DNA of 31,475 nt from a virus. Both the position numbers and the translations under genes were made by a program. How positions within the stretch are numbered: the stretch's first letter is position 1; every line of letters begins with the position of its first letter. Positions 3,219-25,182 of the stretch are shown one piece after another. The notes beneath the pieces are model-generated. The model searched no databases. It was not told where the DNA came from and worked only from the letters and a program-made list of their open reading frames with translations. The stretch covers positions 1 to 31,475 of the IMG/VR virus record IMGVR_UViG_3300033571_010750; one strand, 5' to 3'.

Positions 3219-3266
3219 CGGCTTGCCTCTGCTGGTTTGCGTGCCAGAAGTGTGCCTTTGGTGCCC

Positions 3267-3283
3267 TGTCGGTTTCCCGACTT
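3267..3283 (-). repeat. 17-bp hairpin element, copy 1 (terL/tail fibre)
   Basis: Minus-strand sequence AAGTCGGGAAACCGACA. It forms a perfect 5-bp stem GTCGG/CCGAC closed by a GAAA (GNRA-type) tetraloop. It overlaps the terminase TAA stop and lies about 50 nt upstream of the tail-fibre start. Identical copies are at 19776-19792 and 25166-25182. No U-tract follows, so it is not a standard intrinsic terminator. Confidence 0.75.
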
Positions 3284-4925
3284 ATCGCACGAATTCGGCC
3301 TCGTGAACGTCGCCAGCCGGCCGCCAGTGCGCCCGATCCGGCGCCCGCTCGCTGTCCCGGATATGCACCTTGATCCGCTCCGGCGTGTCGGTGATAGCCG
3401 CTGCCGACGCGTCAACGTAGTCGTCCGCCTGATTCTGGGTTTCCGGGTTAAAGTCCTTCATCTGATCCCAGATTGGGCCGTCCAGCACATCCACGTGTGC
3501 CCACAGCATGCCCGCCGACATGACCGGCTCAAACGCCTCCAGGATGCGCTTGTTCTTGTTGGCGATACTTGGCTCCTCGGCCACGCCGCACGCAATCTTG
3601 CGCTGTTTCATGCACGCCTTGAGCATGGCGGGCGCGAACACTCCGGCGCCGTTGTTCTCCACCACCACCCGCGGCACGTGGAACCGCTCCACCATGTCGC
3701 AAATCTGCCACACCTGCCCGCCGGTAAAGCGCCCGGCTTTGTCCGTTTCCACGATCTCGCCCGTGAGCGCCTCCACCCGGTGCAGGTAGCGCCTCCCGTA
3801 ATCGTCCTGCAAAAGCAGGGCAACGGCCGAAACGTCGCTGTTGAGCTTGGCCGAAGATGGATCCCAGCGCATGGCCATCCCCGCGATACGCGCGCTGCCC
3901 AGCCACATTGAGGCCGTCTTGTTGGCGTACCTGATGACCGGCTCGACGTTGTACGGGATGATGCGCTCCGGGTCTAGGCGGGTTTCACCGATGGGCTTGG
4001 CCTCAAGCTGGTATTGGCTGTCCCAAGCGTTGAGCGTACGCGTCTCCTTGCGCTTAAGCTCGATTTCCTCGCGGGTGAACCGCTCCGGCCAGGCGCACAA
4101 GCTGCAAATGTCGATCACCATTTTTGGCGGGGTGTGGAACTCGATGCCGTTGGCGTTGCGCCGGTAGTCGATGCCCTCCACCATCATTCGAGCGAATTTG
4201 CCAATACCGGCCAGCACGTACAGCCCATCACCTCCCACCGGGTGCGAGTAGGCGTACCGCGTCTTTGTGTCGGTCTGCTCGTAGCGCACCATGTGCTCAA
4301 ACAACGGGATTTTGAGCAAGTCCGCGCCCCCTTCGATCTGTTCCGTGTAGATGCTGTCGTGCGTGTGTGGCGTGCCTACGAATGTCTTTTGCCAGTCCAC
4401 CGTAAGGATGTGGGTAGACTCCTCGATTTTCTGGCGCAGGTTCAGCCGCGACTCGGCTTTTTTGATGTTCTTCGGCACTTCAATATCGTCGAAGTCCGCA
4501 TCGTCCGCGCGCGAGCCGGTGGCGTTGCTGTTCACGCCCACCGCCTCCATGCTTGGGTTTCTGGCGTCGCCAGCACCCACCACCCAAAACGACATGGCCC
4601 CCGGCCTGCCCGGTGGCAGCATGCCCACGCAAAGCGGATGCCTGCGCAATACGTTCAGGGTGTCGCGCGTCAGCTTGCCCGCCAGCTTATCGTCGGCGGC
4701 GTAGATCAAAGAGCGGTTATTGCGGTTGCGATATAGCTTGTATGCCTTCCACACCGCGTAAATGGTGGATTTTGCAGCGCCGCGGAACACCATCAGCACG
4801 CGCACCCGCGCCTTGCAGGTGTCCAGCCATTGGCATATACGCACATGCAGCAGCGGGACTTTCCAGCCTTGCAGCCGTGCCCACATGATGAAGAAGGTCA
4901 GAAACGAGACTTCACGATTTGCCAT
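3282..4925 (-). CDS. terL: Terminase large subunit
   Basis: The DNA-packaging motor ATPase and headful or cos nuclease. With the ATG at 4925 it is 547 residues long; a TTG five codons upstream is also possible. Residues 47-54 (FRGAAKST) are the Walker A loop in the variant common in T7-like and BPP-1-like terminases. DDADFDDIE at 141-149 is a Walker B-like acidic strand. The C-terminal half carries acidic blocks expected of an RNase H-like nuclease (MRWDPSSAKLNSDVSAV, VVVENNGAG, DDYVDASAAAI). The start overlaps the end of the small subunit by 14 nt, a normal packaging-module coupling. The stop overlaps the first hairpin element. Confidence 0.93.
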   Translation of the reverse strand: MANREVSFLTFFIMWARLQGWKVPLLHVRICQWLDTCKARVRVLMVFRGAAKSTIYAVWKAYKLYRNRNNRSLIYAADDKLAGKLTRDTLNVLRRHPLCVGMLPPGRPGAMSFWVVGAGDARNPSMEAVGVNSNATGSRADDADFDDIEVPKNIKKAESRLNLRQKIEESTHILTVDWQKTFVGTPHTHDSIYTEQIEGGADLLKIPLFEHMVRYEQTDTKTRYAYSHPVGGDGLYVLAGIGKFARMMVEGIDYRRNANGIEFHTPPKMVIDICSLCAWPERFTREEIELKRKETRTLNAWDSQYQLEAKPIGETRLDPERIIPYNVEPVIRYANKTASMWLGSARIAGMAMRWDPSSAKLNSDVSAVALLLQDDYGRRYLHRVEALTGEIVETDKAGRFTGGQVWQICDMVERFHVPRVVVENNGAGVFAPAMLKACMKQRKIACGVAEEPSIANKNKRILEAFEPVMSAGMLWAHVDVLDGPIWDQMKDFNPETQNQADDYVDASAAAITDTPERIKVHIRDSERAPDRAHWRPAGDVHEAEFVR

Positions 4926-5289
4926 GTACGTGCCGGTCAAAGGCAGCCTTTTTTGTGGTGCGCTGCAAGGAATCCAGCAGCTTTGTCGCGTCCTTCTCGG
5001 CGGCCTTTATCTCGGCGTCAAGCAGGTTTTCCGATGCCGGGTCATCATTGCCCAGCCCCGCGCCTGCGGGCGTTTTGGACGTGTGCGCCAGGTTATCCAT
5101 TCGGCAAATAAGCGACAGCGTGGCCACGGCATTTTTCTTGCACCAGTAGCGATCACCGCGCGTTTGCTGATCCATCTCGGCTGGCAGCACGTCATGCCCA
5201 GGCCAGTTTTCCGGCTCTGCCTCCTGCACAAAAACATCCACGAGGCGGGCGGACAGGTCTTGTAGTTTGCTGTATTGGTCGGGCCTCAT
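4912..5289 (-). CDS. terS: Probable terminase small subunit
   Basis: A 125-residue protein immediately upstream of and overlapping terL; position is the main evidence for its role as the DNA-recognition subunit of packaging. The ATG at 5289 has a clear AGGAAAGG Shine-Dalgarno and is preferred to a start 11 codons upstream. It is a mostly helical charged protein (DLSARLVDVFVQEAEPENWPGHD, KKNAVATLSLICRMD, ENLLDAEIKAAEKDATKLLDSL) with a segment that could be a DNA-binding helix pair. The sequence resembles small proteins preceding terL in Bordetella and Burkholderia podoviruses. Confidence 0.72.
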   Translation of the reverse strand: MRPDQYSKLQDLSARLVDVFVQEAEPENWPGHDVLPAEMDQQTRGDRYWCKKNAVATLSLICRMDNLAHTSKTPAGAGLGNDDPASENLLDAEIKAAEKDATKLLDSLQRTTKKAAFDRHVHGKS

Positions 5290-5315
5290 ATTCCCTTTCC
5301 TGTAGAATTCAAAGA

Positions 5316-5588
5316 ATGCCACTGCCCGTCACCCTCGCCGCCGCCCTGCTGATCTTCGGCAGCGCGTGCGCGGCTGCGTTTGCACTGTCGTACCCGGTGC
5401 TTGAATGGGCGGGAAATCAGCGTTCCGACTTTGCCGCCACCATCGCCGTGTTTTGGTGTGTCGCCGTGTTCGCGGCGTGCATGGTCTGCGGCTTCCGCGT
5501 GCTGTTCCGGTACGCGCGATGGGAAACTGAGCGGGAACGCGGGCAGCATCAGCGCGCCACCTCCGAAGGCCGCAACCAGAATTCCTGA
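5316..5588 (+). CDS. Two-TM membrane protein on the opposite strand
   Basis: A 90-residue protein, unrecognised as a family, encoded against the leftward late operon in the only sizeable gap there. Residues 3-27 and 41-64 are clear transmembrane segments (LPVTLAAALLIFGSACAAAF; TIAVFWCVAVFAACMVCGF), followed by a basic, hydrophilic tail. Codon third positions are strongly G/C in this frame, as in the phage's real genes, while the antisense frame gives a Pro/Arg/His-rich product. It starts 26 nt from the divergent terS start and overlaps the end of the convergent virion gene by about 40 nt. The Shine-Dalgarno is weak and no clear promoter was seen. A moron-type role such as superinfection exclusion is inference only. 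Confidence 0.62.
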   Translation: MPLPVTLAAALLIFGSACAAAFALSYPVLEWAGNQRSDFAATIAVFWCVAVFAACMVCGFRVLFRYARWETERERGQHQRATSEGRNQNS

Positions 5589-8044
5589 TTGTTTTCCTTC
5601 TGTATGCGCGCTTCCATGCGCCGCAGGTATCCGGGGTTCATCGCCTCCTGTATCTCGTACAAAACCAAGTAATCCAGCGCGGGCTTGACGTAAAACAGAT
5701 TCACAAACGGCGTATTGCTGACTACCGTTTTCATCGCGCTACTCGCCACGTCATCCCCGTTCATCAAGCGTGCGCGCAGTTCGTCAATATCGGCAACCGT
5801 CGAAAGGACTGGCCCGCCCAGCGTCTCCAGCAGTGAGCGCCCGAAACGCGAGGATTCACCCAGCACGAAATCGCCATAGATGCCCATGGCGCCGCCCTGC
5901 ATCATCGCCGCCCCCATGGTCTTGGGCGAGAGTGGATCGCGCGGCTCCCGGCCTTTGAGCAAGTCCTTGATGCTCATGGCGGCGTAACCAAAAAGCGTGG
6001 TGTACAGCACCAGTTGTGCAATGCCGGTAAATTCCGTCATCCCGGCCTGTCGCGCCGTGTCCGCACCGTAGCCGTAAAGTTCGCGCCCGAATACCTTGTG
6101 CATCAGGGCCGTGGGAAAGCTCTTGAACTGCGAGATGTACCGCAGTAGCTCACCTTCGACGGTGCCCGGCTGCGTGCCGCGTTGCAGCCACCAGCGCGAG
6201 CGCGCATCGGGTTCGATCACGGCATGGTGCGCGCGGTCGATGTAGAAGCTGCGCAAGGATGCCGCGAGGTCTGCGCGCAGGTTTTCTGCGGCTCGCTCGC
6301 TGGCTGGTAGGCCTTTGCTGGCAAGGTAGGCCGTCAGATCGGCCCGGCTCACCGCCTGCATCCCCTCTGGCGTCAGGTATGGCCGGTCATCGGCCAGCTT
6401 CACCCCGGACTGTCGCAGCAAATCCCACTTGCCGGAATCAATGCCGTAAAGCGACAGCGTGCGCGCCGCGCTTTCGGGTAGGCCGTCCCATGCCTTGCCC
6501 GCCTGCAACGCCATGTAGTGCGCGCTCGACAGGGCTGACGCGGATCGCAGGCTTTCCGTCCACCAGGTCAGCCCGTTCATGCGGAAAAACTTCTGCATTG
6601 CCCACGTCATGCCCTTTCCGGTCAGGTCTTGGGCGTCGAAGCGCGCGAATACCTCTCCCAGCATGGACTCATGGAACACACCCAGTGATGCCAGCATGTC
6701 AGCTTGCTCGCCCTTGGGCCTACCCTGCAATACGCCGCCAATGGCCTCGGTGATACCCGACAGAAACCCCTTGCCCTGAGCATACCGAACCTCTGACGCG
6801 TAAACAGGCACGTCCGTTATCGAAGTAATGACAGCGCCGCCCAGCTTGCTTATCGACTGCCACGCGCGCAGGTTCGCCCCCACCTTGGCTGCGGTGGCGT
6901 TACCCGGAATGCTTGCGCGCCCATCCACGTGCGCCAGCATGTCGATTACCTGCCGCTGCATGTCGGAGAACTGGCCGCGCTCCTGCCCCTTGAGCGTATC
7001 CGCCACGCGCGACATTGCCGCCTCAAGGTTCGCTTGCGGGTTGGTGCCCAGCACTTTCATGATACCGGCCTGCTTTGCCGCAGACTGCAGCCCGGTCAAC
7101 ACCGCCTCATTGAGATTGCCGACGCCAAATTTCGCGTTGTAGTCAAACCACGCATCAGCATCCAGAAAGTGCAGCGTGCGCGATTGGGACGCGCGCTTGG
7201 CGATGTTCGATGGCCCCTTGAACCCCGCCATTTCCGCGCCGGGTATGGCGTTCATGTGGTCGCCGCTCGACAGGTCATCGAACACGCCGCGCAGGAAAGC
7301 ATCGCGGTTCAATTCGGGGTTTTCGGATTCGATGCGCCGCCAGTCCAGGCGCGGCTCGATCTCCCCGCGCCACTGGTCGAAACCAGCGGCGTGAATCTTG
7401 TACATGTCGTGAGACTGGCGGACGATGTAGCCCTCGAGCTTGCCGATCCACGAGCCGAAGCGGTTTCGGGTCAGGCGTGACGCCTCTTGGTAGGTGTGCA
7501 CGATCTTGGCGATGTCTACGGCCTGATCCGCCAGCCCGCGCATATCCGGCGTGTCCTTGCCCAACTGCCACAGCGCGCGGGCAATGTCTCTGTCCATAGC
7601 GCCAGCCGTAAACACCTCGCGCAGCCCGGCCTTGTCCAGATCGTGCGCCAGTGCGCCGATCCACTCCCCGGCGAACTGCTTCTGTTCGGCAGCGGCCGAT
7701 GCGCGCCCGCCCACCTTTAGCCGTTCGGTGCCCGCCACCAGCGCAAAAGCGCCCTCACGGAAGCCTTTGGCCGTGGCCGGGAATTGACGGATGAACGACT
7801 CGGCGCGCATGCGCACTTGCAAATTCAGGTACGCGTTTCGTTTCTCGATCACGGCAGCGATCTTCATGCCGTTGTAAACGTCATCGGCTGCGGCCATTGC
7901 CGGGTCTTGCAGGCTGTCGGCTTTGATCCCGGATTCACGCTCTCGCTTGGCCGCGCGCAGTTCAGTAATCAGGCGCTCAAGCTCGCCGTCCGTAAGGTCT
8001 GGAACAGCCTTTACCATCACTTCTTCGCATGCGCTACGGGCCAT
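5549..8044 (-). CDS. Large internal virion / DNA-ejection protein
   Basis: An 831-residue protein, last in the block of virion-core genes before terminase. The N-terminal third is helical and charged (LERLITELRAAKRERESG). The middle is mixed, and the C-terminal ~200 residues have several hydrophobic stretches (GIAQLVLYTTLFGYAAMSIKD, MMQGGAMGIYGDFVLGE, VSNTPFVNLFYVKPALDYLVLYEI), as expected for a protein that enters the host envelope during ejection. Size and position correspond to the gp15/gp16 type of T7 or the last ejection protein of BPP-1-like phages. No lytic transglycosylase motif was recognised. The ATG at 8044 shares a base with the upstream stop (TGATG). Confidence 0.75.
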   Translation of the reverse strand: MARSACEEVMVKAVPDLTDGELERLITELRAAKRERESGIKADSLQDPAMAAADDVYNGMKIAAVIEKRNAYLNLQVRMRAESFIRQFPATAKGFREGAFALVAGTERLKVGGRASAAAEQKQFAGEWIGALAHDLDKAGLREVFTAGAMDRDIARALWQLGKDTPDMRGLADQAVDIAKIVHTYQEASRLTRNRFGSWIGKLEGYIVRQSHDMYKIHAAGFDQWRGEIEPRLDWRRIESENPELNRDAFLRGVFDDLSSGDHMNAIPGAEMAGFKGPSNIAKRASQSRTLHFLDADAWFDYNAKFGVGNLNEAVLTGLQSAAKQAGIMKVLGTNPQANLEAAMSRVADTLKGQERGQFSDMQRQVIDMLAHVDGRASIPGNATAAKVGANLRAWQSISKLGGAVITSITDVPVYASEVRYAQGKGFLSGITEAIGGVLQGRPKGEQADMLASLGVFHESMLGEVFARFDAQDLTGKGMTWAMQKFFRMNGLTWWTESLRSASALSSAHYMALQAGKAWDGLPESAARTLSLYGIDSGKWDLLRQSGVKLADDRPYLTPEGMQAVSRADLTAYLASKGLPASERAAENLRADLAASLRSFYIDRAHHAVIEPDARSRWWLQRGTQPGTVEGELLRYISQFKSFPTALMHKVFGRELYGYGADTARQAGMTEFTGIAQLVLYTTLFGYAAMSIKDLLKGREPRDPLSPKTMGAAMMQGGAMGIYGDFVLGESSRFGRSLLETLGGPVLSTVADIDELRARLMNGDDVASSAMKTVVSNTPFVNLFYVKPALDYLVLYEIQEAMNPGYLRRMEARIQKENNQEFWLRPSEVAR

Positions 8045-9717
8045 CACGCCACCCCGCAGGCAGCGCCCGCACGCAGGGCTTTTGAGTAGGCTTCCGCGCG
8101 CTGTATCGCTGCGTCGTACGGCTTCAATTCGTCCAGCAAGTCACGCATACCCAGCGCCTCCGCCATTACCTTTGTCTGTTCCACGTGAAACGCCATTTCT
8201 TCGTCTGCCGATTTCACATCCGCTGGCTTGGATGTCGCCGCCTGCGCGTGTGCGGCTGCGCTGGCTTTTGGCTCGTGCGCCATGTAAGGCGCGCTTTGAG
8301 CGGCGGCGCGTGCACCGGCCACGGCCTGCTGTTCGGTCGAGCCGGTAAGCTGGCGAATGCTGGGGTCTACGGCCAGCAGTGAATCCACGGTGATTTGCCG
8401 CCCCTCCACCGCCTGCGCAATCGCGGCGCGCATGGCTGACTGCCGGGTTTCCGGGGATACGCGATCCAGCAACAGCGCCGCCTCCATGGGATTGCGGCCC
8501 AGGTCGATCAGGCGTTGTGCGTCTGCGGCCATGCGCGCGGACAAATCGCGCTTGGCGGTCACCGCGCCGGGGCTGTCCGGCGAGTTGCCGCGGGCAAGCG
8601 TTTCCCGGTCAATGGTATCCATCGCCGCCAGCGTCTTACCCATGCGTTCGTTGATGTAGTCGGCCTCGTGGCCCTTTTCGAGCGCCTTGATGAAGATGGA
8701 ATCTTCGGCGTTTCGCTCGAATGCAGGGGTAGCCAGCACGCGGGCGGCACGATCAACTTCCGGGCTGCGCTGGTTTTGAAGGGCTAGGTTATCGTCTGCG
8801 GTGCGCAGAAATCCCGGCTTGGCCTCGGCGTCCGCGATGCGCTGCGCCAGATTGAGCGCGTCTACCGCCTTGGGGTTCGGCTTCAACACGGGCGGCTCAA
8901 ACACGGCCCGCGCCACTTCTGGTGGCATGCCCGCCGCTGCCTGCTCGCGCGGGGTCGGTGTCCCGGTATCAGCCGCCATCCGCCACCACCCCGGCTGCAC
9001 CACGTCACGGAAAGCCCCGCCAGCAGCGTGCAGACCGCCGCCAAAGATGCCGCCGAAGCCGATATTGAGCAGGCTATCAACCATCGTGTAATCGGCCTGC
9101 TCGCCACGCTGGGCGGCGTAGATGATTGGCTCAAGGACGGCAGCACCAACAATGCCCTCTGCCGCGCCCACGCCCGCCCGAACACCGGCCCGGCCCAATG
9201 CGCCGCCAGTGCCCGCCACCATCGCCGCGTAACGCCCTGGCCCCACCACCGGGATAAACGCCGAAGCGATGTTGAGCGGGTCAAACAAGGATTCAACCAG
9301 CCCCACGCCAAGCCGCGCCGCGCCCGCCGCCAAGCCATCCGGCCCACGGCTGAAAACATCCTGCCGCCGCAGTTCTTCGCGCTTGGCCTTGATGAGCAAC
9401 TCCAGCGCCCTTTCGTTGATACCGGAGTCCGGCACGGTCAGCGGCAAGCGCTCTTGCTTGATGCGCTCGCGGGCGGTGGCGGCATCCACCCGCCGCGCTT
9501 CTTCGTAGGTGGGCGGAATACCCAGCATGGGGTCGCCGGGGTCAAGCACCGTATCTCGGCGCGCGGTGAACTGATCGTTCAGGCGGCGCAAAGAGTTCAG
9601 CGGGTTGGTATTCTGCGTATCCTCAGACTGTGTGCGCAGGGTGTCGAGCAATGAAGCCGGGTATTCCGCAAGCGGTGCGCCCCGGCGCAGGTTCATTTCT
9701 CCAGCGTATAGGGGCAT
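8044..9717 (-). CDS. Internal virion protein with hydrophobic core
   Basis: A 557-residue virion-core protein, third-from-last in the ejection block. The N-terminal ~130 residues are hydrophilic. A long Gly/Ala-rich hydrophobic region follows (VVGPGRYAAMVAGTGGALG, GVGAAEGIVGAAVLEPIIY, LLNIGFGGIFGGGLHAAGG), able to form membrane-inserting helices. The last ~250 residues are Ala/Arg/Glu-rich and helical. Such amphipathic, membrane-competent proteins between the gp14-like and largest core proteins build the trans-envelope conduit in short-tailed phages. The ATG at 9717 follows the upstream stop at once (TGATATG); an ATG seven codons in, with a better GGAG, is an alternative. Confidence 0.72.
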   Translation of the reverse strand: MPLYAGEMNLRRGAPLAEYPASLLDTLRTQSEDTQNTNPLNSLRRLNDQFTARRDTVLDPGDPMLGIPPTYEEARRVDAATARERIKQERLPLTVPDSGINERALELLIKAKREELRRQDVFSRGPDGLAAGAARLGVGLVESLFDPLNIASAFIPVVGPGRYAAMVAGTGGALGRAGVRAGVGAAEGIVGAAVLEPIIYAAQRGEQADYTMVDSLLNIGFGGIFGGGLHAAGGAFRDVVQPGWWRMAADTGTPTPREQAAAGMPPEVARAVFEPPVLKPNPKAVDALNLAQRIADAEAKPGFLRTADDNLALQNQRSPEVDRAARVLATPAFERNAEDSIFIKALEKGHEADYINERMGKTLAAMDTIDRETLARGNSPDSPGAVTAKRDLSARMAADAQRLIDLGRNPMEAALLLDRVSPETRQSAMRAAIAQAVEGRQITVDSLLAVDPSIRQLTGSTEQQAVAGARAAAQSAPYMAHEPKASAAAHAQAATSKPADVKSADEEMAFHVEQTKVMAEALGMRDLLDELKPYDAAIQRAEAYSKALRAGAACGVA

Positions 9718-9718
9718 A

Positions 9719-12304: not shown

Positions 12305-12307
12305 ATC

Positions 12308-14553: not shown

Positions 14554-14558
14554 AATGT

Positions 14559-14888
14559 TCACGACCCCGGACGCTTTACCCAAGTGGCGATCTGCTCGCC
14601 CCATTTGCTTTCGCGGATGATCGTTTGCAGCGCAGCAAGCAGGCTCATGCCGAACACCCCCAACACAAACCCAACAGCGCCGGTGGCCGCCTCCGATAGC
14701 GTGAAGTACTCCGCCAGCGCAGGCGCGCCCACGTAAGCGCACGCCGCCCCGCCCGAGCAATACACCAGCCGCGTGAGCCAGTGCATGCCCGGCTGGGCGA
14801 AGTACATCGACAGGCATGCGCCGATGAGCCCCCACAACAACACGCCCTTGCTTTTGATGCCGAGGGCTGCGGCCAGTTGCTCGATCAT
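14559..14888 (-). CDS. Putative holin
   Basis: A 109-residue protein with three predicted membrane spans (GVLLWGLIGACLSMYFAQ; LVYCSGGAACAYVGAPAL; AVGFVLGVFGMSLLAAL) and a charged C-terminal tail, the topology of a class I holin. It sits directly upstream of the second membrane protein and the endolysin, and its ATG overlaps the upstream stop (ATGA). It would form the inner-membrane lesion that lets the signal-less endolysin out. The family was not identified by name. Confidence 0.75.
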   Translation of the reverse strand: MIEQLAAALGIKSKGVLLWGLIGACLSMYFAQPGMHWLTRLVYCSGGAACAYVGAPALAEYFTLSEAATGAVGFVLGVFGMSLLAALQTIIRESKWGEQIATWVKRPGS

Positions 14889-15349
14889 TGCAATAACTCC
14901 CTTGCCCGCGCTGCGGTAATGGTGAATCTATAACCGGATGCCGGGTTAGCCAGCCACTCCGCGATTGAGTCCGTACGCTCCGGGTAGTGACGCAACTGGA
15001 CGCGGTACGCCCACACTTCGGCCCACAATCGGTAATGCTCTGATTTCAGATACAGGTCGCCGTGCACGCGCTCGCCCCACGGGATAGACAACGCCGCGCA
15101 CAACAGCCCTACAGCCAGCGGCACGACTGGCGACACGATGTAACCAGTCACAAACCACAGCAACGCCGTAACCGCGATGCAAAGCTGCCATTGGTCTACG
15201 TGAGTAAGCTCATGCGCAAGCAACCCGGAATCGCCTTTGAACTCCGGACGGATGCGAACCTCGTTGCGATACTGCGCACCCGCACCAGTAGATGCAACGC
15301 CATCTGATGTGTAAATCACCTTTGCGCGCCAGCGGTCAAAAAGCCTCAC
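14885..15349 (-). CDS. Membrane-anchored HExxH zincin-like protein
   Basis: A 154-residue protein at the head of the lysis cassette. Residues 44-54 contain LAHELTHVDQW, a full HExxH zinc-protease motif (His46, Glu47, His50). A downstream EVWAYRVQ segment (Glu111) is well placed to be the third zinc ligand, as in ExxAYxxQ-type gluzincin relatives. Two hydrophobic spans fill residues ~56-90, between the motif and the third ligand. The start is GTG just after the nozzle-gene stop, with a run of G as ribosome site. Protease activity is inferred from the motif. Possible roles are cleavage of an envelope or lysis protein, or a structural zincin fold. Confidence 0.68.
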   Translation of the reverse strand: MRLFDRWRAKVIYTSDGVASTGAGAQYRNEVRIRPEFKGDSGLLAHELTHVDQWQLCIAVTALLWFVTGYIVSPVVPLAVGLLCAALSIPWGERVHGDLYLKSEHYRLWAEVWAYRVQLRHYPERTDSIAEWLANPASGYRFTITAARARELLQ

Positions 15350-15350
15350 A

Positions 15351-17594: not shown

Positions 17595-18166
17595 TACGCC
17601 AACCGGTGCGCGAGCGTCGGAAAGTCGCCCATCGTTTCGGGCGGGTTTTCTTGGCCGTCAACGGTGCGCGCCGCCTTGAGCACGTCTTTTACAATCTGCT
17701 CCTCGCTCGCCTGTTTGGTGGTGGATTTGGTAATCGGGTATGTCAGCGCGGCAACCATCACCTGCGTCATGGCGTCCACCAGCAGCGCGTCCCACGTGGC
17801 CGGTTCCTCGTTGCGGAAGATGTAGCGCAGTCGGCAAATGGTCGAGTCCATGAGGATGTACCCGCCCTCGATCTCGTACTCGTCGTAGCCGTTTTCCTCG
17901 TCGCCTACGGACAGCACGCGCAGGCAGTCGCCCGGCAGGGGGAACTTGTATGCCCATCCAAATGCTGGCTCAGTCGTGTCTGGCGACAGCACCACGCGCT
18001 TTATCGCGCAGTTCCACGGATGAGAGCGCAATACCCTATCGCGCTTCATTGGGAACAGGTTCACACACAGCCGCGTCCTGGCGTTGTCAACGTCGAAGCT
18101 GTCGATAGATTCATCACCCAGCAGCAGCAGCGCGTTGGAGCATATTGATACGGCACTGGTTGGCAT
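17594..18166 (-). CDS. Tail gatekeeper (tail tubular protein A-like)
   Basis: A 190-residue adaptor that joins portal to nozzle. The sequence (SICSNALLLLGDESIDSF, LFPMKRDRVLRSHPWNCAIKR, FGWAYKFPLPGDCLRVL, EEPATWDALLVDAMTQVMVAALTYPIT) fits the T7 gp11-like gatekeeper family found across podoviruses. The ATG at 18166 has a GAGGT ribosome site. The gene begins 19 nt after the strong terminator, so its expression depends on readthrough or a local promoter. Confidence 0.87.
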   Translation of the reverse strand: MPTSAVSICSNALLLLGDESIDSFDVDNARTRLCVNLFPMKRDRVLRSHPWNCAIKRVVLSPDTTEPAFGWAYKFPLPGDCLRVLSVGDEENGYDEYEIEGGYILMDSTICRLRYIFRNEEPATWDALLVDAMTQVMVAALTYPITKSTTKQASEEQIVKDVLKAARTVDGQENPPETMGDFPTLAHRLA

Positions 18167-18184
18167 GCTGCTACCTCATTCAAG

Positions 18185-18214
18185 AAAAAAACCCGGCCCT
18201 TTTCAGGAACCGGG
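18185..18214 (-). terminator. Intrinsic terminator downstream of the capsid genes
   Basis: On the minus strand an 8-bp stem (CCCGGTTC / GGGCCGGG, with two G-U pairs) closes a 7-nt loop and is followed by seven Ts. It lies between the capsid-associated gene (stop 18256) and the gatekeeper gene (start 18166). This is the same genomic place as T7 terminator T-phi after gene 10, so it probably boosts capsid over tail expression. Confidence 0.85.
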
Positions 18215-18255
18215 CTTAAAGGCCGCTTGCGCGACAGATTGCTTGTTGCTTTTGC

Positions 18256-18717
18256 TTACGGGAACAGGAACGGAACCTCGATCTTGATTTGCGCGTTCGC
18301 GGTGGGCGTGCCGCCGTTGAGAGTGGCGTACATGTAGGAGTCCACCAGCGTGACGTACTCCACGCCGTCTTTCACCAGCGCGCCGCTGTTGAGAATCGAA
18401 CGTACGGCTGCGGTTGCCACGTCTACCGCGGCGGCGATGCCGTCCGCGTCTATGGCGGTGCCGTCCGACACCTTGCGCAACCCCACGTCGAGCGTAATGC
18501 TGGTGCCCATATCTGCGCAGTTCACGTAGCCGTTGCTCAGGATGCGCGAACCCTTGGGGATGACATGGGGTGATGCAATGGTGTCGCCGTTGGCCCACGT
18601 CACCGTGTCCGGCGAGGTAATGACGATAACCTTCGGATCACCGATGCCCATTTTCGGGCGCTGGTATTTGGTGCCGGCCGCCACGTATGCGGCCTGTTTG
18701 CTTACGACTTCAGCCAT
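18256..18717 (-). CDS. Capsid-associated structural protein, possible decoration protein
   Basis: A 153-residue, beta-rich protein encoded directly after the major capsid gene and before the terminator, so co-expressed at high level with capsid. It has no recognised motif. Visible features are a Val/Thr/Asp-rich pattern (GDPKVIVITSPDTVTWANGD, DGVEYVTLVDSYMYATL) and an Ala-rich helix (AIDADGIAAAVDVATAAVRS). It has a strong AAGGAG ribosome site. Position suggests a head decoration or head-stabilising protein; this is inference. Confidence 0.7.
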   Translation of the reverse strand: MAEVVSKQAAYVAAGTKYQRPKMGIGDPKVIVITSPDTVTWANGDTIASPHVIPKGSRILSNGYVNCADMGTSITLDVGLRKVSDGTAIDADGIAAAVDVATAAVRSILNSGALVKDGVEYVTLVDSYMYATLNGGTPTANAQIKIEVPFLFP

Positions 18718-18741
18718 GATTTATCTCCTTGTTCGTGGCGG

Positions 18742-19608
18742 TTATTGGAAGGCGATTTGAACGACTTTGTACTCGTCCTGACGGCCCGCCCCATACGAGG
18801 CGCCCATCGAGACTTGCCACAAGTCTTTCTTGTCGCCGCGCCGGGTCACATTGCCCTCTTCGTAGCCGCGCGCAAAGTGGATGCCGGACTTGGCCCAGGC
18901 GTACAGGTAGTACGTCGAACTGGTCAGCGTCACGTTCTGGTACGGAATCCACGTGAAGCCCATCCACTTGCGGCCAACGTCGCCATCTTGGATCATCTTG
19001 ACGGCCATGAAATCGGCGCTGGTCAGCGTCGTATCGGTCATGATGTCCTCCATGGCCTTGTCGTTGTACATAAAGTACAACTCCTCGCCTGCATGCTCGT
19101 CCGCCTCGTTCGCGCGGAAGATGCTCTTGGCTTGGATGATCTTGGCCTTGGTCAGACCGGCAGAGCCGTGCGCGATCAACTGGCCAGCTGGCAAGGTGTT
19201 CGCGGTGACGCCGTCCTTGGAACTGATGGACGCGCCCAATGCGGTATAGATGATGCTGTCGGCCTTCCTGTTTCGCGCGCTGATCAGTTGGCGCATGTAA
19301 TCGCCACCGGTCACAGGGTTGACGATCATCTTCGGGATGTCGTTGCGGTCGAGCGGCAGCGCCTTGTAGTAGTCGGTCATCGTCGCAAGGCGGTTGCTGT
19401 GGTTCGGGTCGCCCCACTCGGTATCGCCGTGACGCACCGTGTTGGCGTCCATCTCGACGGTGCCGATGTTGTTGATGGTGAAACCGTCGCCGCTGATCTG
19501 GCCGCGATCCGTGACCGCTTTCATCAGGCGGGATTCGGTTTGCTGGGCAGCGTGGCGGATGCTTGTGTCCCACTGCTGCACGAATGCTTGGGTGATCGTG
19601 TCGGACAT
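18742..19608 (-). CDS. Major capsid protein
   Basis: A 288-residue protein that builds the icosahedral head. It follows the scaffold gene and has a strong AGGAG ribosome site. The pattern (ITQAFVQQWDTSIRHAAQQTESRL, MDANTVRHGDTEWGDPNHSNR, TDYYKALPLDRNDIPKMI, WMGFTWIPYQNV, AWAKSGIHFARG) matches the podoviral Phage_capsid_2-type coat proteins with HK97-like fold that lack a cleaved propeptide. The 185-nt leader upstream is non-coding and rich in hairpins. Confidence 0.9.
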   Translation of the reverse strand: MSDTITQAFVQQWDTSIRHAAQQTESRLMKAVTDRGQISGDGFTINNIGTVEMDANTVRHGDTEWGDPNHSNRLATMTDYYKALPLDRNDIPKMIVNPVTGGDYMRQLISARNRKADSIIYTALGASISSKDGVTANTLPAGQLIAHGSAGLTKAKIIQAKSIFRANEADEHAGEELYFMYNDKAMEDIMTDTTLTSADFMAVKMIQDGDVGRKWMGFTWIPYQNVTLTSSTYYLYAWAKSGIHFARGYEEGNVTRRGDKKDLWQVSMGASYGAGRQDEYKVVQIAFQ

Positions 19609-19648
19609 GAAAAACTCCTGAATAAGTTGATAGGTTCATCAGCCTTCC

Positions 19649-19674
19649 CAGGGTGTCCGGTTAAACCGGGCCTG
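19649..19674 (-). repeat. Capsid-leader hairpin, promoter-proximal to capsid
   Basis: The palindrome CCGGTT-T-AACCGG (19657-19669), with an outer CAGG/CCTG pairing, forms a long imperfect stem. In the transcript it is followed by ACACCC-type sequence, as for the other two related hairpins. No U-tract follows it. Confidence 0.6.
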
Positions 19675-19681
19675 CTACGTT

Positions 19682-19703
19682 CTGGCGCTGGCTTAAGCGT
19701 CAG
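19682..19703 (-). repeat. Capsid-leader imperfect hairpin
   Basis: Arms CTG-G-CGCT and AGCG-T-CAG pair around a GGCTTA loop, with one G-U pair. It lies between the two larger hairpins of the leader. It is the weakest of the set. Confidence 0.4.
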
Positions 19704-19715
19704 GTGCGGGCATCA

Positions 19716-19754
19716 CAGCACAGGGTGTCCGCTCGCCACTTCGGGCCTGTGCTG
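19716..19754 (-). repeat. Capsid-leader hairpin with 9-bp stem
   Basis: A perfect 9-bp stem, CAGCACAGG/CCTGTGCTG, encloses a 21-nt loop containing further short pairing (CCG/CGG). The inner sequence shares AGGCCCG and CGGACACCCT with the hairpin at 19649-19674, so the two are diverged copies of one design. Confidence 0.65.
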
Positions 19755-19775
19755 CGCATTATGTTTTTGGCGGGG

Positions 19776-19792
19776 TGTCGGTTTCCCGACTT
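19776..19792 (-). repeat. 17-bp hairpin element, copy 2 (scaffold/capsid)
   Basis: Same 17 bp as the copies at 3267 and 25166, with stem GTCGG/CCGAC and GAAA loop. It begins two bases after the scaffold TAA and opens the capsid leader. Identity to the 25166 copy extends to AAAA before and CC after the core. Confidence 0.75.
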
Positions 19793-19793
19793 T

Positions 19794-20708
19794 TTAAATG
19801 ATCAGTATTGCTGATCCGCTTTTTTTAACGTCCGAAGCGGCCTTTGCCTCGAAGTAATCGCGTACCTGCTTGCTCACGCGCGCATGGTCAACGTGTTTCG
19901 GGTTGTTGTAGGCCTCGGAATCCAGCAAATGCTCAACGGTTTGTCCCGCAGGCAGTGCGGCGCCGGGGTTGATGGCTTTATCCTCGCCAAGCTCGCCGCC
20001 GATGCGATTGAGCATCCGAATGAAGCGCGGATCGTTGCCGTACTCTTGGATAAGCGCTTGAGCATCTTCGCCGCCATAGGCCACGGCTGCGTTGTATGCC
20101 TTTTTCGTCTCGGCCTTGTACTGATCTTCTGATTTCCACTCTTTGCGCAAGTCGGCCACGCAATCATCGGCAGACAGCGTGCGCGAACCCTCGACCAGCT
20201 TGGGCGCGATCTCCATGTACCGGCCCATGGCCAGGTCGATTTGCTTTTGCGTATACCCGGCTGCGTGAGCTTCCTTTAGAAACTCGCCCATGATCGGGTC
20301 GGCCTTGGGGTCCCACTTCCCTTTAAGCGCATCGGGCACCGCCACCGTGTATTCGTCCGGCGTTTTGGGCCGCACGTCACCAGTGCCCAGGCGTGCCGAT
20401 AGGTGGCCGTATGCCTCGCCCAGCTTCTTGCTCGAAGCCTCAAGGTCTATCGTGCCGTCAGGCGCCTTGACGTGGTACTTCTCCGGGATGAAGTGCTTAT
20501 CGCCAGCGCCTTGGGCTAGGGCTGTGCCTGCGTCTGCGCCTGCTCCTGCGCCCTGCGCGGCTGCTCCGCTGGCTGGTGCGGTTCCACCCGCTGCTCCTCC
20601 GTCTGCGCCGCCTGCTGCTGCTCCAGCATCGCCGCCACCGCCGCCGCCGCCATCTGCTCCACCACCAGCCGAATCGCAAAGCACATTGAAAAGTCCTTTC
20701 AAAAACAT
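19794..20708 (-). CDS. Capsid scaffolding protein
   Basis: A 304-residue assembly scaffold. After a short hydrophobic start, residues ~14-70 are an extreme Gly/Ala/Asp low-complexity region. The conserved scaffold segment follows (FIPEKYHVKAPDGTIDLEAS, then KLGEAYGHLSARLGTGD, PKTPDEYTVAVPDALKGKWD), as seen ahead of the coat gene in T7-like and BPP-1-like phages. The C-terminal half is helical and charged. The ATG at 20708 has a GAGGAG ribosome site. The Gly/Ala run is coded by repetitive GC-rich codons and may vary in length between relatives. Confidence 0.86.
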   Translation of the reverse strand: MFLKGLFNVLCDSAGGGADGGGGGGGDAGAAAGGADGGAAGGTAPASGAAAQGAGAGADAGTALAQGAGDKHFIPEKYHVKAPDGTIDLEASSKKLGEAYGHLSARLGTGDVRPKTPDEYTVAVPDALKGKWDPKADPIMGEFLKEAHAAGYTQKQIDLAMGRYMEIAPKLVEGSRTLSADDCVADLRKEWKSEDQYKAETKKAYNAAVAYGGEDAQALIQEYGNDPRFIRMLNRIGGELGEDKAINPGAALPAGQTVEHLLDSEAYNNPKHVDHARVSKQVRDYFEAKAASDVKKSGSAILII

Positions 20709-20711
20709 GGG

Positions 20712-20948
20712 TTACTCCTCGTTCTCGTTGGTCTGCACGCCATTGGCGCGGTTGATTTGCGTGTTGATGTAGTCGATCACCTTGCGCATGCCGCCCCGCT
20801 CGTAGGTCTGCAACACGGCATCGATTCCGCCCTTGCTGACTTGTGGCTGGTAAAAGCGCTGAATGAGGTCATCGAGGATGCGCGCGCCGCGTCTATCGAC
20901 CTCAAACATGTCGGCATAGTCCTGCGCGGTTGGACGTTGTTCGCTCAT
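20712..20948 (-). CDS. Bbp19-like small phage protein
   Basis: A 78-residue protein (DYADMFEVDRRGARILDDL, then QTYERGGMRKVIDYINTQIN) resembling the Bbp19 family named after Bordetella phage BPP-1, usually encoded beside the scaffold and capsid genes. The start overlaps the previous stop by 4 nt and it ends 3 nt before the scaffold ATG. The family's function is not known to me; a minor morphogenesis role is inferred from context. Confidence 0.68.
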   Translation of the reverse strand: MSEQRPTAQDYADMFEVDRRGARILDDLIQRFYQPQVSKGGIDAVLQTYERGGMRKVIDYINTQINRANGVQTNENEE

Positions 20949-21259
20949 GCGGCTTTTTTCACTGGCGCTACCTTGCGCGGAATCTGCATGCGTGAAATCT
21001 TGTAGCCGCCGCGCTCCTCGGTGAAAGTAACCAAGCCCATTCTCATAACGTCCGCGAGCCTCTTGTATTTCTTGTATTCGTGCGGCTTCATCTTGCGGCG
21101 ATCCGTAAAATCAATCACGAAAAGCTGATCAATCCCTGCGTTAATGAGCGCATCGTTTATGCTTTCCCCGGCCTCAAGGTCACGCGCGATGCCGAAAGCA
21201 ACAATCGTTGACCCGGTATCCACTTCACCAAGCCCCATACCCCTGATAACGATGGTCAT
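20945..21259 (-). CDS. Conserved phage protein of unknown function
   Basis: A 104-residue protein, not recognised. The N-terminal half is beta-like (MTIVIRGMGLGEVDTGSTIVAFG). The middle and C-terminus are basic and helical (RRKMKPHEYKKYKRLADVMR), ending in PRKVAPVKKAA. Start and stop both overlap neighbours by 4 nt, so it is a tightly coupled member of the head operon. Confidence 0.65.
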   Translation of the reverse strand: MTIVIRGMGLGEVDTGSTIVAFGIARDLEAGESINDALINAGIDQLFVIDFTDRRKMKPHEYKKYKRLADVMRMGLVTFTEERGGYKISRMQIPRKVAPVKKAA

Positions 21260-21909
21260 GCAAGCCTGTTCCGCAGTTCTGCGCCAGTCCCGTTGTATGC
21301 CGTGGTTCCAGCGGCGTCCTTGTAAATCAGCGCCGTCATGTAAGGCGTTACGCTGTCATCGTCGTAGATCGTCAGCACTCCGCTTGCGGGGTCTGTCTTG
21401 ATTCTGTTCCGAAGAATCTTCTGGCAAATCGTGATTGATGCATTGTCCGGTGCCGTATAGCCGGATGTTGCCAGCCGGGATGACACTGCGGCATCGAGGT
21501 TTGATGCGTTTAGACCCGTGACACTGCCAACAGAACCAACAACATTACCACCTACATTTCCGGTAACGCTTGCAACAGCACCACCGGCAAACGTGCTGCG
21601 GCTGGATACATCCGCATCAGTAGCCCCGGCCTCGACCAACAACACCAAATCGCATGGGTCAGCACCAGGCGCGGTAATGTGAATCGCCAAATCCCCAACG
21701 GTATCCGTCATGCCAGCCGTCAACGCAATCGAATACCATCCGGCAGACCGCCCCGTTACGGTGGGCGCGATGCTTGCAAATGCGCCGCCGTCCTTGCTTG
21801 CCGTGATGGTCAATGTGAGACTGTCAACTCCCGTGACGTGATCGGTAGATGAAACCATAATCACCATCACGTTTTTTGCTGTGCTTTGCTTGACCTTACG
21901 CATTGGCAA
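21256..21909 (-). CDS. Structural protein with repetitive glycine/valine segment
   Basis: A 217-residue protein. The N-terminal half is beta-sandwich-like (LTLTITASKDGGAFASIAPT, GWYSIALTAGMTDTVGDLAI). The middle has short repeats (SVTGNVGGNVVGSVGSVTG), then LDAAVSSRLATSGYTAPDNA. The end (ILRNRIKTDPASGVLTIYDDD, then YNGTGAELRNRLA) is a module I associate with many phage virion proteins of unclear role. It lies between the portal and scaffold groups. A head-surface or neck appendage is inferred. Confidence 0.68.
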   Translation of the reverse strand: MPMRKVKQSTAKNVMVIMVSSTDHVTGVDSLTLTITASKDGGAFASIAPTVTGRSAGWYSIALTAGMTDTVGDLAIHITAPGADPCDLVLLVEAGATDADVSSRSTFAGGAVASVTGNVGGNVVGSVGSVTGLNASNLDAAVSSRLATSGYTAPDNASITICQKILRNRIKTDPASGVLTIYDDDSVTPYMTALIYKDAAGTTAYNGTGAELRNRLA

Positions 21910-22363
21910 CGCGGCTGCGCGAATAGGTATTGCTGCCGCCAGAGTCCGGGGCCGTTGGGTCGCGCAAGTAAATCGAAACGCTTGCGTTACCGGCGAGAAT
22001 GTTGCGCGTAGTCCCTGCCCTATCAGGTGATCCGGAAAGATACGCCACCGCGTAATACAGTAGGCCTGGGCTCACGGGCGAAAAATTGAATACGCCTGCG
22101 CCATCGCTGGTTGTCGCATCAACCCGCGCATCATCAATCACCCGGTACAACTCCACAGAACACCCGCCAAGAGCGGCCCCCGCACCTGTTAGCGTGTTGC
22201 CGCCAATGAGCAGTGGCGGCAGGTATATGGGAGGGCGCGGCGTGATCCCGGACAGAGAAGGGCCAAGCGCTCGACGGTGACGTGATATTGCGCCGATGCC
22301 GCGCCCGACTAAATTATGCTCATCCATCTTGATCAGACGGACATTCCGCCCGTAGTAAATCAT
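21896..22363 (-). CDS. Protein with carboxypeptidase-regulatory/Ig-like domain
   Basis: A 155-residue protein. After a basic, Pro-rich lead (PSLSGITPRPPIYLPPLLIG), residues ~55-135 form a predicted beta-sandwich of the carboxypeptidase-regulatory type (LYRVIDDARVDATTSDGAGVFNF, given here in parts: ATTSDGAGVFNF, PGLLYYAVAYLSGSPD). Ig-like folds of this sort are common on phage surfaces and are thought to bind carbohydrates. It overlaps both neighbours slightly (1 nt and 14 nt). Confidence 0.65.
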   Translation of the reverse strand: MIYYGRNVRLIKMDEHNLVGRGIGAISRHRRALGPSLSGITPRPPIYLPPLLIGGNTLTGAGAALGGCSVELYRVIDDARVDATTSDGAGVFNFSPVSPGLLYYAVAYLSGSPDRAGTTRNILAGNASVSIYLRDPTAPDSGGSNTYSRSRVANA

Positions 22364-22917
22364 TAGTTCAGAGAGACGAAATCAAAATCATGAACTTGCA
22401 TGGTTTCCGCGGTTGATCCGCTGCGCAGCGCTTGCGGACTCAGCACCAGCGATGCGCTTGTGAGATCGCACGCGCCGGATACGACTGGAGCCGTAGCAGG
22501 AACAAGGAAAGTACCTGCTGCGATAACCGATGTGCCAAACGTCGCGCGCCCGTTCACAAAAAGCGTCCCCGTCGCGCCCGTGCTTCGGCAATGCGTCCAG
22601 ACTTCCCATATCCACGAAATATTCGTCTGTGACGCCACCAACGTCTGAGCGGCAGAAGATGCCAAAACAACGCCGTTGGCGTCCGCGCCAGTGCCATACA
22701 GCAAGCCTAGCGTGAGGTTTCCGGGTGTGAGCGCTGTCGTGATACGCCCAAACATCCGCATGTACGTCTTTTTTCCGACGCGGCCAAAGTAATGCGTGCC
22801 GAGCGGCGGGAGGTTTGAGACTGGCAGCAATGCCTTATTTGTCGCCGCCAGCGTCACAGCGGACGCGTCTGCGCCCATAAACGGCTCGCGCAAATCGCAA
22901 TAAAATGCACCATCCAT
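22363..22917 (-). CDS. Beta-rich virion protein, unknown
   Basis: A 184-residue protein, not recognised. It is rich in Thr, Ala, Val and Gly with alternating hydrophobics (TYMRMFGRITTALTPGNLTL, SWIWEVWTHCRSTGATGTLF), suggesting a jelly-roll or lectin-like sandwich. It is the first of three beta-rich genes between portal and the head-assembly genes, all with minimal spacing, so they are probably minor capsid or appendage proteins. Confidence 0.65.
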   Translation of the reverse strand: MDGAFYCDLREPFMGADASAVTLAATNKALLPVSNLPPLGTHYFGRVGKKTYMRMFGRITTALTPGNLTLGLLYGTGADANGVVLASSAAQTLVASQTNISWIWEVWTHCRSTGATGTLFVNGRATFGTSVIAAGTFLVPATAPVVSGACDLTSASLVLSPQALRSGSTAETMQVHDFDFVSLN

Positions 22918-22933
22918 GATCTACCTCGTGTGG

Positions 22934-24547
22934 TTATGCGGCAGCCTTGTTGATGATGGCCTCGCCCGCGGTTTGCCCAAGCTGCGCCATTTGCGCCTGC
23001 GCCTGCGCCTGCTTCTGCTGCTCGACACGCGCGGCGCGCATCTTCTCTACATCACGCGGCGCACGCATCACCTTGACCGGCACGCCCAGGAACTTGCCCC
23101 GCTGCCGTGCGGCCTCGTCAAAGTCGTACACGTCAAGTACGCCGGGATCAACTTGGGCCTCTGCCATCAGCGATTGCTCCATGCGATCCATTGCGGTGAC
23201 ATCCTCCAGCCTTTGCGAGCGCGCGAGCGGGCTGATGTATTTCACCGTGTAGATTTTCCCTTGCAGCGACTCTGGAGCAACGCCCAGCACACCAGCGCGA
23301 TACGCAAGGCCGAAGCAGCGCTTGACCAGCGGTTGCAGGTATTCCGCTTGCAGGCGTCCGTAGATCGGCCCCAGCAATTGCCGGATCAACTGCACGCGCA
23401 CGTGTACCTCTGTCGCCGTCATCGCGGGGCCGTCCTGCGGCTGCAACTGGTCGGCCAGCATGATCTTGCGAATCGTGGCCTGTAGCCGCTCTTCGCTGCT
23501 GAAAGCAACATCGAAACGCGCGCTCGATTTCAACTCCTTCATCGAGTCGGTGCTGTTGGCGATGATGACCTTGCGCGGGCCGATCTTGATATTTTTGGGG
23601 TTCAGAACACCATCGTCGGTGGCGATGTACATGCCACTCATGGCCATATCAAGCGCGGCCAATTCCATGGCCTTGATATCGTTGATGGTGCGAATGCTAC
23701 CTAGCGCCGCGCTCATCGGGCCGGTGCCGTATGGCGTTCCCGGCGTCAGCATCCAGCGCGGCACGCAGCATGGAAACTCGTGATATCCGCTCTCGCGCAA
23801 CAGGTGCTTGTCGTGTACCTCGACATGGCACGATGAAAAAGGCAGGTTTACGGCGCGCTTCCCGCCCACCACGTACATTTTGCGCGGGTAAATCGCGTGC
23901 AGCACAGTTACCTTCTCCTCGTACTTCTCCTCCTCGTGAAGGCGCGCAACTCGCGGCGAAACGTTGTCGATGCCGTACTCCGTAACCACCTGATCAACGG
24001 TAAGCTCGACCTCTCGAAAAATGGTATCAACCACCCCGCCCGGCTTGCTCGCGGACACAAAGCACTGCGCAATCGGCCATTGCTCGAAGTGATACCCGCC
24101 GCCTTCGGCCTCGTCGATGTACAACACAAACCAGCCAGCGGGCACGATGTCGATGCAGCACTCGAAAGCCTGCGCGTCGAAGTTCGCGGCGTGAATGTTG
24201 TCGAAGATAAAGCGCGCGGCCTGATCCAGCCAGCGCGATTCATCGGTGCCGCTACCTTCGTCCTCGCTGTAGTTTCCAGCGTCGAGGCCCAGCCAGATTG
24301 AGGATGACGGCGTGTTTCCGGATACCAGCGCCGCGCTCAGTATTCGCGCGCTGTCCGCCGCCGTATCGTCGAGAATGCGATTTTTCTTTGTCTGCGCATC
24401 TTGCGGCAGCACAACGCTTGATTGCAGGCCGCTGCCACGCTCAGGAAACGAGTAATCGAAACACTCTTTCCATGCCTGCTCGTGCGGCTGCCTGGTCGCG
24501 CGCAGCGACTCCAGGCGCTTGCAAATGGCGGTGGCTTTGTCGCTCAT
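22934..24547 (-). CDS. Portal (head-tail connector) protein
   Basis: A 537-residue portal forming the dodecameric DNA channel at one vertex. The opening (AICKRLESLRATRQPHEQAW, then CFDYSFPERGSGLQ) is the hallmark of the T7 gp8-like Head-tail_con family. Further family features are RILSAALVSGNTPSSSIWLGL and PYGTGPMSAALGSIRTIND. The C-terminus ends in a Gln/Ala-rich helix (VEQQKQAQAQAQMAQLGQT). The length is normal for the family. The start overlaps the upstream stop (ATGA). Confidence 0.93.
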   Translation of the reverse strand: MSDKATAICKRLESLRATRQPHEQAWKECFDYSFPERGSGLQSSVVLPQDAQTKKNRILDDTAADSARILSAALVSGNTPSSSIWLGLDAGNYSEDEGSGTDESRWLDQAARFIFDNIHAANFDAQAFECCIDIVPAGWFVLYIDEAEGGGYHFEQWPIAQCFVSASKPGGVVDTIFREVELTVDQVVTEYGIDNVSPRVARLHEEEKYEEKVTVLHAIYPRKMYVVGGKRAVNLPFSSCHVEVHDKHLLRESGYHEFPCCVPRWMLTPGTPYGTGPMSAALGSIRTINDIKAMELAALDMAMSGMYIATDDGVLNPKNIKIGPRKVIIANSTDSMKELKSSARFDVAFSSEERLQATIRKIMLADQLQPQDGPAMTATEVHVRVQLIRQLLGPIYGRLQAEYLQPLVKRCFGLAYRAGVLGVAPESLQGKIYTVKYISPLARSQRLEDVTAMDRMEQSLMAEAQVDPGVLDVYDFDEAARQRGKFLGVPVKVMRAPRDVEKMRAARVEQQKQAQAQAQMAQLGQTAGEAIINKAAA

Positions 24548-24792
24548 GCACCGCTGCCGCCGCTGCCGAGTACGGTTTGATTGGGCACTGCGCCAGCGCT
24601 TTGAAGCACGGTTGTGCCGTCGCCATCAGCGGCCAGCAATCCCTTCTGCGCGCGCTTGCGGCGGGCGTCTGAGATCAAGGCCTCGTTGGCCTTCGCCGCT
24701 GCGTCTGCTTCCGCTGCGCGGCGCTCTGCCGCTGGATCAACAACCGGCATTTGCGGCGAGCTTCCACCACCGAACAATGCACCGAAGCACAT
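24544..24792 (-). CDS. Small structural protein upstream of portal
   Basis: An 82-residue protein. The N-terminus (MCFGALFGGGSSPQMP) is followed by an Ala/Glu helix (AAERRAAEADAAAKANEALI) and a Gly-rich end. Short proteins of this style, beginning MCxxx(F/L)FGG, often precede the portal in T7-like and BPP-1-like genomes. It may be a minor virion protein. It overlaps the portal start by 4 nt. Confidence 0.62.
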   Translation of the reverse strand: MCFGALFGGGSSPQMPVVDPAAERRAAEADAAAKANEALISDARRKRAQKGLLAADGDGTTVLQSAGAVPNQTVLGSGGSGA

Positions 24793-24798
24793 GGCCGT

Positions 24799-25119
24799 TT
24801 ACGCCTTAAACGCGTTGGGATGCGAACCCATGCGCGGTGGCACAATCCATCCCTGCTTGGTCAGCACGGCGCGGCTGATTTTGCTCGCGTCAATGCTGCC
24901 CTGATCGGGCAAATCTTCGGCCTCTGCGCGCGCCTTGGTCGGTACGGCTCGCCCCTCAAGGCGCTCGATTCGATCCAGCATCCGGTTGAGGTCTGACACT
25001 CGCACAGTCACCGTTTCTTCGGCGGCTGGCGCATCGGATGCGGGCACTTGGGCCGCAACATCCTGAGACTCATCGGGCGGCTGTTGGCCGGGATTCTGCG
25101 GGGTTCTGGTAGGCCTCAT
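24799..25119 (-). CDS. First gene of the late block, unknown
   Basis: A 106-residue protein, unrecognised. The N-terminal 40 residues are Pro/Gln/Ala-rich and likely disordered. A short predicted coiled-coil helix follows (VRVSDLNRMLDRIERLEGRA), then a C-terminal region with SKISRAVLTKQGWIVPPR. It has a GAGGATCGC ribosome site before the ATG. It follows hairpin copy 3, so it marks the start of the structural gene block. Confidence 0.65.
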   Translation of the reverse strand: MRPTRTPQNPGQQPPDESQDVAAQVPASDAPAAEETVTVRVSDLNRMLDRIERLEGRAVPTKARAEAEDLPDQGSIDASKISRAVLTKQGWIVPPRMGSHPNAFKA

Positions 25120-25165
25120 GCGATCCTCGTCGGTTTGCGATGCCGAGAGGATGCGCCGGGTTAGG

Positions 25166-25182
25166 TGTCGGTTTCCCGACTT
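25166..25182 (-). repeat. 17-bp hairpin element, copy 3 (early/late boundary)
   Basis: Same 17-bp element as at 3267 and 19776, 6 nt after the TAA of the HTH gene ending at 25189 and 46 nt before the first late gene. It marks the junction between early or regulatory genes and the structural block. Confidence 0.75.

Follow-up and report, generated by a model that had tools for sequence, protein, structure and literature searches.

A repeated palindrome at three gene boundaries

The window analyzed here, the whole stretch of DNA under study, is a single IMG/VR record of 31,475 bases. It encodes podovirus virion genes (terminase, portal, tail and internal virion proteins) together with an integrase gene. 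Between their tail and internal virion genes, relatives carry a gene annotated as an N-acetyltransferase, and the window gene in a similar place (14885-15349, minus strand) gave only a weak eCIS-core match. The features relevant to this study are listed below, with promoter elements and transcription starts given as predictions.

1383-3218, minus strand: tail fibre gene
3249-3254, minus strand: CACACT, -10 hexamer of the tail-fibre promoter (predicted start ~3242, 24 nt leader to the ATG at 3218)
3267-3283, minus strand: proposed activator box of the tail-fibre promoter; exact match
18710-19639, minus strand: major capsid gene, assigned by position and annotated relatives
19647-19676, minus strand: capsid mRNA leader hairpin 2, same motif as hairpin 1
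19719-19751, minus strand: capsid mRNA leader hairpin 1 (CAGG-C-CCG..CGG-ACAC-CCTG), beginning at the predicted 5' end
19758-19763, minus strand: CATAAT, -10 hexamer of the capsid promoter (predicted start ~19751, 112 nt leader to the ATG at 19639)
19776-19792, minus strand: proposed activator box of the capsid promoter; exact match
24799-25119, minus strand: first late gene, proposed to be driven by the first late promoter
25148-25153, minus strand: CATCCT, -10 hexamer of the first late promoter, at the offset (+14 to +19) found in 39 of 40 sites (predicted start ~25141, 22 nt leader to the ATG at 25119)
25166-25182, minus strand: proposed activator box of the portal/first late module, palindrome GTCGG-GAAA-CCGAC; exact match, same place in relatives
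25189-25479, minus strand: small HTH protein of the phrog_16553 family, proposed cognate late activator; likelier start ATG at 25473

A preliminary description of this DNA had reported an identical 17-bp element in three places and one orientation, and had judged such a repetition unlikely by chance. Exact searches agree: AAGTCGGGAAACCGACA occurs as three perfect 17-mers on the minus strand, and allowing up to 3 mismatches returned only the same three copies in the window. In 100 dinucleotide shuffles the mean was 0.05 copies, and none of the 100 reached 3. The placement of each copy within 7 nt of a stop codon, and just upstream of the tail fibre, capsid and first late genes, is equally accurate. 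The element at 3267-3283 overlaps the terminase stop codon (3282-3284), the one at 19776-19792 lies 1 nt from the scaffold stop codon (19794-19796), and the one at 25166-25182 lies 6 nt from the stop codon of the HTH gene (25189-25191); the downstream genes start at 3218, 19639 and 25119. The shared identity comprises a 14 bp palindrome and 3 flanking bases, beyond which the copies diverge.

The preliminary description also proposed a motif scan of related phages. Used as a query, the portal protein retrieved 80 viral loci with 52-71% identity. In most of these, GTCGG-NNNN-CCGAC is found again, with its orientation and gene boundaries unchanged: one position is directly in front of the capsid, and the other precedes the portal by a few hundred to ~1,100 bases. 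The exact form is present in 34 of 42 whole records. Loops in these relatives read GATT, GAAT, GATC or GAAA, and arm variants include CCGAA, CCGTC, CCGTT, CTGAC, GGCAGG..CTGCC and GTCCAG..AATGCC. An exact 17-mer search of viral contigs gave seven matches, among them one from the same phage (L005) and one from a true relative with the HTH gene (L007); the other five, with neither a -10 nor an HTH profile match, were set aside as probable chance. Separately, an unrelated viral contig carries an exactly repeated, GC-rich inverted repeat (L003:265 and 1232).

The palindrome lies at a fixed distance from a -10 hexamer

Collecting sites by their core sequence and removing near-duplicates left 40 non-redundant sites. 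At 39 of these, an A is found at position 15 and a T at position 19 after the core, as in a sigma70 -10 hexamer (NANNNT) that starts 14 nt after the palindrome and is separated from it by a 13 bp spacer. At any other offset, the same signature is present in at most 4 of the 40 sites. The sole exception, L015, has a -10 that looks shifted by one base. Most sites were found independently of the -10; the few divergent cores in L011-L014 and L017 are not independent in this count, because the -10 was a condition of the search that first found them. A -35 hexamer is absent from the 40 sites, with a mean best match of 2.38 of 6 positions compared to 2.74 in shuffled sequence.

Because the -10 lies at a fixed offset and the -35 is missing, the palindrome would occupy positions -39 to -26 of late promoters. 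The box promoters show both marks of the activator-dependent class in which a box stands in for the -35: a sigma70 -10 at fixed distance and no recognizable -35. Judged from this layout, each copy of the element is probably the upstream half of a late promoter, with the box in the place of the -35.

Several sites are present per prophage

An Escherichia coli prophage, STEC383, contains exactly five sites, all with the -10, which precede the first late gene (portal module), the capsid, the terminase small subunit (identified by position), the tail fibre and the holin. The STEC383 terminase promoter shares sequence with a hairpin that, with its T run, resembles a terminator (L215:34249-34310), and one transcript may therefore stop at the point where the following one starts. 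In YeP4, an induced podovirus prophage of Yersinia (PMC6548840), sites lie at the same boundaries and one precedes the lysis genes, mostly in the asymmetric form CCGAA.

We also ran the pattern of core plus -10 over whole bacterial genomes. Three Pseudomonas genomes of 4.7-6.3 Mb (G045, G048 and G050) each contain it four times, on one strand and within 18-19 kb, and a reversed-pattern control gave 0 matches in them. These genomes had been chosen for one prior match, and the further matches are independent. The HTH gene is in the same position in all three. Cases with two sites occur in Burkholderia and Herbaspirillum. Most of the 80 genome matches of the pattern are probably chance, as the HTH gene is found in only four of those loci.

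A small HTH protein is linked to the boxes

Among the window genes right of the capsid, many loci contain relatives only of the HTH protein (25189-25479) and of the structural genes around the portal. Relatives of the HTH protein were found in 76 loci by BLAST and 77 by profile, making it the only broadly conserved non-virion gene, and most loci without it end short of its expected position. The gene lies just upstream of the first site, and in many genomes its 3' end is overlapped by the first box. The phrog_16553 profile matches the window protein with an E value of 4.3e-14 and 25 of 25 members of the set; PHROGs labels this family "transcriptional repressor", while Pfam and NCBIfam gave only weak generic HTH matches. 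AlphaFold2 predicts an all-helical, four-helix HTH core with a pLDDT of ~90 or more. Structure comparison of this model gave XRE/lambda-repressor-like matches, such as C.BclI, C.Esp1396I and P22 c2, but no match was statistically strong: Foldseek E values were above 0.1 and the best Z score was 7.5. A MarR-like gene at 28974-29447 was dropped as a candidate box binder, being not conserved in relatives.

If one protein reads all boxes of a genome, they should change in concert. Indeed, altered boxes are shared within genomes, with CCGTC twice, CCGTT twice, GGCAGG..CTGCC twice, and CCGAA; GTCCAGAAAATGCC occurs twice in one genome, identical at 14 of 14 positions. Residue 50 of the HTH protein, the first of the recognition helix, also varies with the base after the core (+1): in 25 of 25 regulators, R accompanies A and K accompanies C. 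A rare T also occurs at this base. The R/K idea was formed on the viral loci and two genome loci, and the rule then held in genomes outside its making (L218, L219 and L221). On the HTH tree, residue 50 and the +1 base change four times each and always as a pair. The covariation is suggestive rather than proof, because only two of the four paired changes fall on well-supported branches, and a sign test with 4 pairs cannot reach 0.05. DNA specificity may thus be readable in part from one recognition-helix residue.

The preliminary description had offered two interpretations of the element, of which one, that a late regulator (for example the HTH protein) binds it as DNA, is well supported by the conservation and adjacency of the HTH gene, the concerted sites, the R/K-A/C covariation and the fixed distance to the -10; the promoter layout itself had been missed. 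We conclude that the HTH protein at 25189-25479 is the likely cognate binder of the box.

Loci that depart from the pattern

One relative, L016, has no boxes and no HTH gene beside its late genes. At two places where relatives have box promoters (L016:567-579 and 7307-7319), it instead carries extended -10 promoters with CGTGNTATRRTTC; the promoter sequences there are CGTGCTATGATTC and CGTGGTATAGTTC. CGTGNTATRRTTC is found nowhere else in the L016 locus, with 0.13 matches expected. The contig is incomplete, so an HTH gene could lie elsewhere. The main counter-example to an HTH activator is L061, which has intact box promoters (L061:7961-9226) and no detected HTH gene in its 37.5 kb contig. The genes upstream in L061 are a lysis module and a terminase-small-like gene, which suggests that this region is a module swapped by mosaic exchange through recombination. 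Distant HTH homologues in TPWB-05 and Piluca are accompanied by no recognizable box, and scanning these two phages and vB_EcoM_APEC for a more strongly diverged box gave nothing convincing.

A double hairpin in the capsid mRNA leader

The capsid leader contains two copies of a hairpin, the first of which begins exactly at the predicted capsid transcription start, 19751. The motif, CAGG-C-CCG..CGG-AYAC-CCTG, stands in tandem on the minus strand at 19647-19676 and 19719-19751. Among 18 hairpins from nine phages, 98.4% of cells are paired and compensatory changes occur at 4 of 7 pairs; the covariation score was reached by 0 of 500 shuffles. Sequences known to share the motif were selected by eye for this alignment, and the covariation counts therefore outweigh the percentage paired. 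A covariance model found the double hairpin in capsid leaders outside the training genomes, including those of Burkholderia and Pseudomonas prophages, and the double hairpin has no Rfam match at the curated threshold. It is possibly an undescribed structured RNA, which might act as a 5' stabilizer or in translational control. An RNA element near a predicted mRNA end thus does exist here, in a sequence other than the 17-bp element. A candidate box in enterobacterial capsid leaders, GCCGGGAAACCGAC, was rejected, since it is part of leader hairpin 2 and no -10 stands at the expected distance from it.

Alternative explanations

The other interpretation in the preliminary description, an RNA hairpin with a GNRA loop that stabilizes or processes mRNA ends, fared poorly. 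GTCGG-GAAA-CCGAC folds as RNA and its stem is preserved in several variants, but the loop is not fixed as GNRA, reading GATT, GAAT and GATC besides GAAA, and the proposed check for stem covariation revealed at least one broken pair in 10 of 17 distinct variants. With loops and arms varying in this way, an RNA hairpin is not what has been conserved. Moreover, the spacing from the element to the -10 is fixed, the element precedes the predicted transcription start, and the 17-bp element has no Rfam match. We regard an RNA hairpin as very improbable. An intrinsic terminator was rejected as well, as the sole T run, at 19777, belongs to the plus strand, which is antisense here, and not to the coding strand. 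Slightly less probable than the RNA hairpin is a promoter for a phage-encoded single-subunit RNA polymerase like that of T7 or N4. Conserved repeats ahead of late modules in a T7-like set of particle genes would suit such an enzyme, but the conserved hexamer is of the host sigma70 type and the annotations of YeP4, Piluca and the E. coli prophage list no RNA polymerase gene. A PF00940 search of ten records also gave no match, which is weak evidence given that no control genome matched either.

A closer rival is that the HTH protein represses at the box and holds the late promoters off during lysogeny or at an early stage of infection. The family label says repressor, the predicted fold resembles P22 c2 and other repressors, and a site over the -35 suits a repressor as well as an activator. 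However, with the box in place of any -35 element, the promoter should be weak unaided. L016, whose late genes have no HTH gene next to them, carries stronger extended -10 promoters at these places, and annotated relatives already have a separate CI/LexA-like repressor. We therefore consider repression unlikely, though less so than the RNA hairpin or the phage polymerase promoter. Judged from promoter sequence, the box promoters are most likely poorly used by the host polymerase alone and activated by the HTH protein.

A proposed late-gene switch

We consider it highly probable that the boxes belong to late promoters activated by the HTH protein in place of -35 recognition. The protein, whose gene (25189-25479) would be the final one in the early/replication operon, would bind the palindrome, probably as a dimer. 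There, the palindrome would take the place of the -35 (positions -39 to -26), with 13 bp between it and a weak sigma70 -10, and the bound protein would recruit or stabilize the host RNA polymerase. Transcription is predicted to start ~26 nt after the palindrome, and the late modules would be switched on together. The sequences show the element, its position, the spacing to the -10, the lack of a -35, and the linkage and covariation with the HTH gene; from these we infer that the protein binds, that it activates and does not repress, where transcripts start, and when.

Neither 14-mer occurs in the papers searched, the preliminary description knew of no account of the element, and the YeP4-6 paper does not mention promoters (PMC6548840). 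As far as we could find, no late-gene switch has been described for temperate T7-like podoviruses without a recognizable RNA polymerase. With moderate confidence, we propose that this is such an undescribed switch, in which a small XRE-type protein substitutes for -35 recognition at as many as five promoters in widespread temperate T7-like podovirus prophages, with a specificity partly readable from one residue. The analysis provides a candidate regulator, box, promoters and specificity residue in one step for a large, little-studied group of temperate podoviruses, with prophages in Enterobacterales, Pseudomonas, Burkholderia and Herbaspirillum. If true, it would give a function to genes labeled hypothetical or repressor, and it offers candidate orthogonal activator-promoter pairs.

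Comparison with known systems

The proposed arrangement resembles the middle promoters of phage T4, a sigma appropriation system with MotA and AsiA. There, the -35 gives way to a MotA box that lies 12 ± 1 bp from a host-type -10 (PMC2988021). As with T4 MotA/AsiA, a host-type -10 is retained and a phage box substitutes for the -35, here with a 13 bp spacer. Unlike the T4 system, the box is palindromic, the regulator is predicted to be an XRE-like all-helical HTH protein rather than a MotA double wing, and the targets are late genes of a temperate podovirus. Phage Mu C offers a second parallel, as one activator serves four late promoters with non-consensus -35 and -10 elements (PMC4461284). A single phage activator is likewise proposed here for several dispersed late units; the likeness is one of promoter organization, and the box sequence and the set of units differ. 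The C proteins of restriction-modification systems have the small XRE HTH fold that is predicted for the phage protein, and C.BclI and C.Esp1396I were the top Foldseek matches, but the E values exceed 0.1, identity is ~15% and the gene context is different. Lambda CII is also a small activator that acts over the -35 region, where it binds direct TTGC repeats flanking the -35. In contrast, the site described here is a palindrome, and it stands before other target genes.
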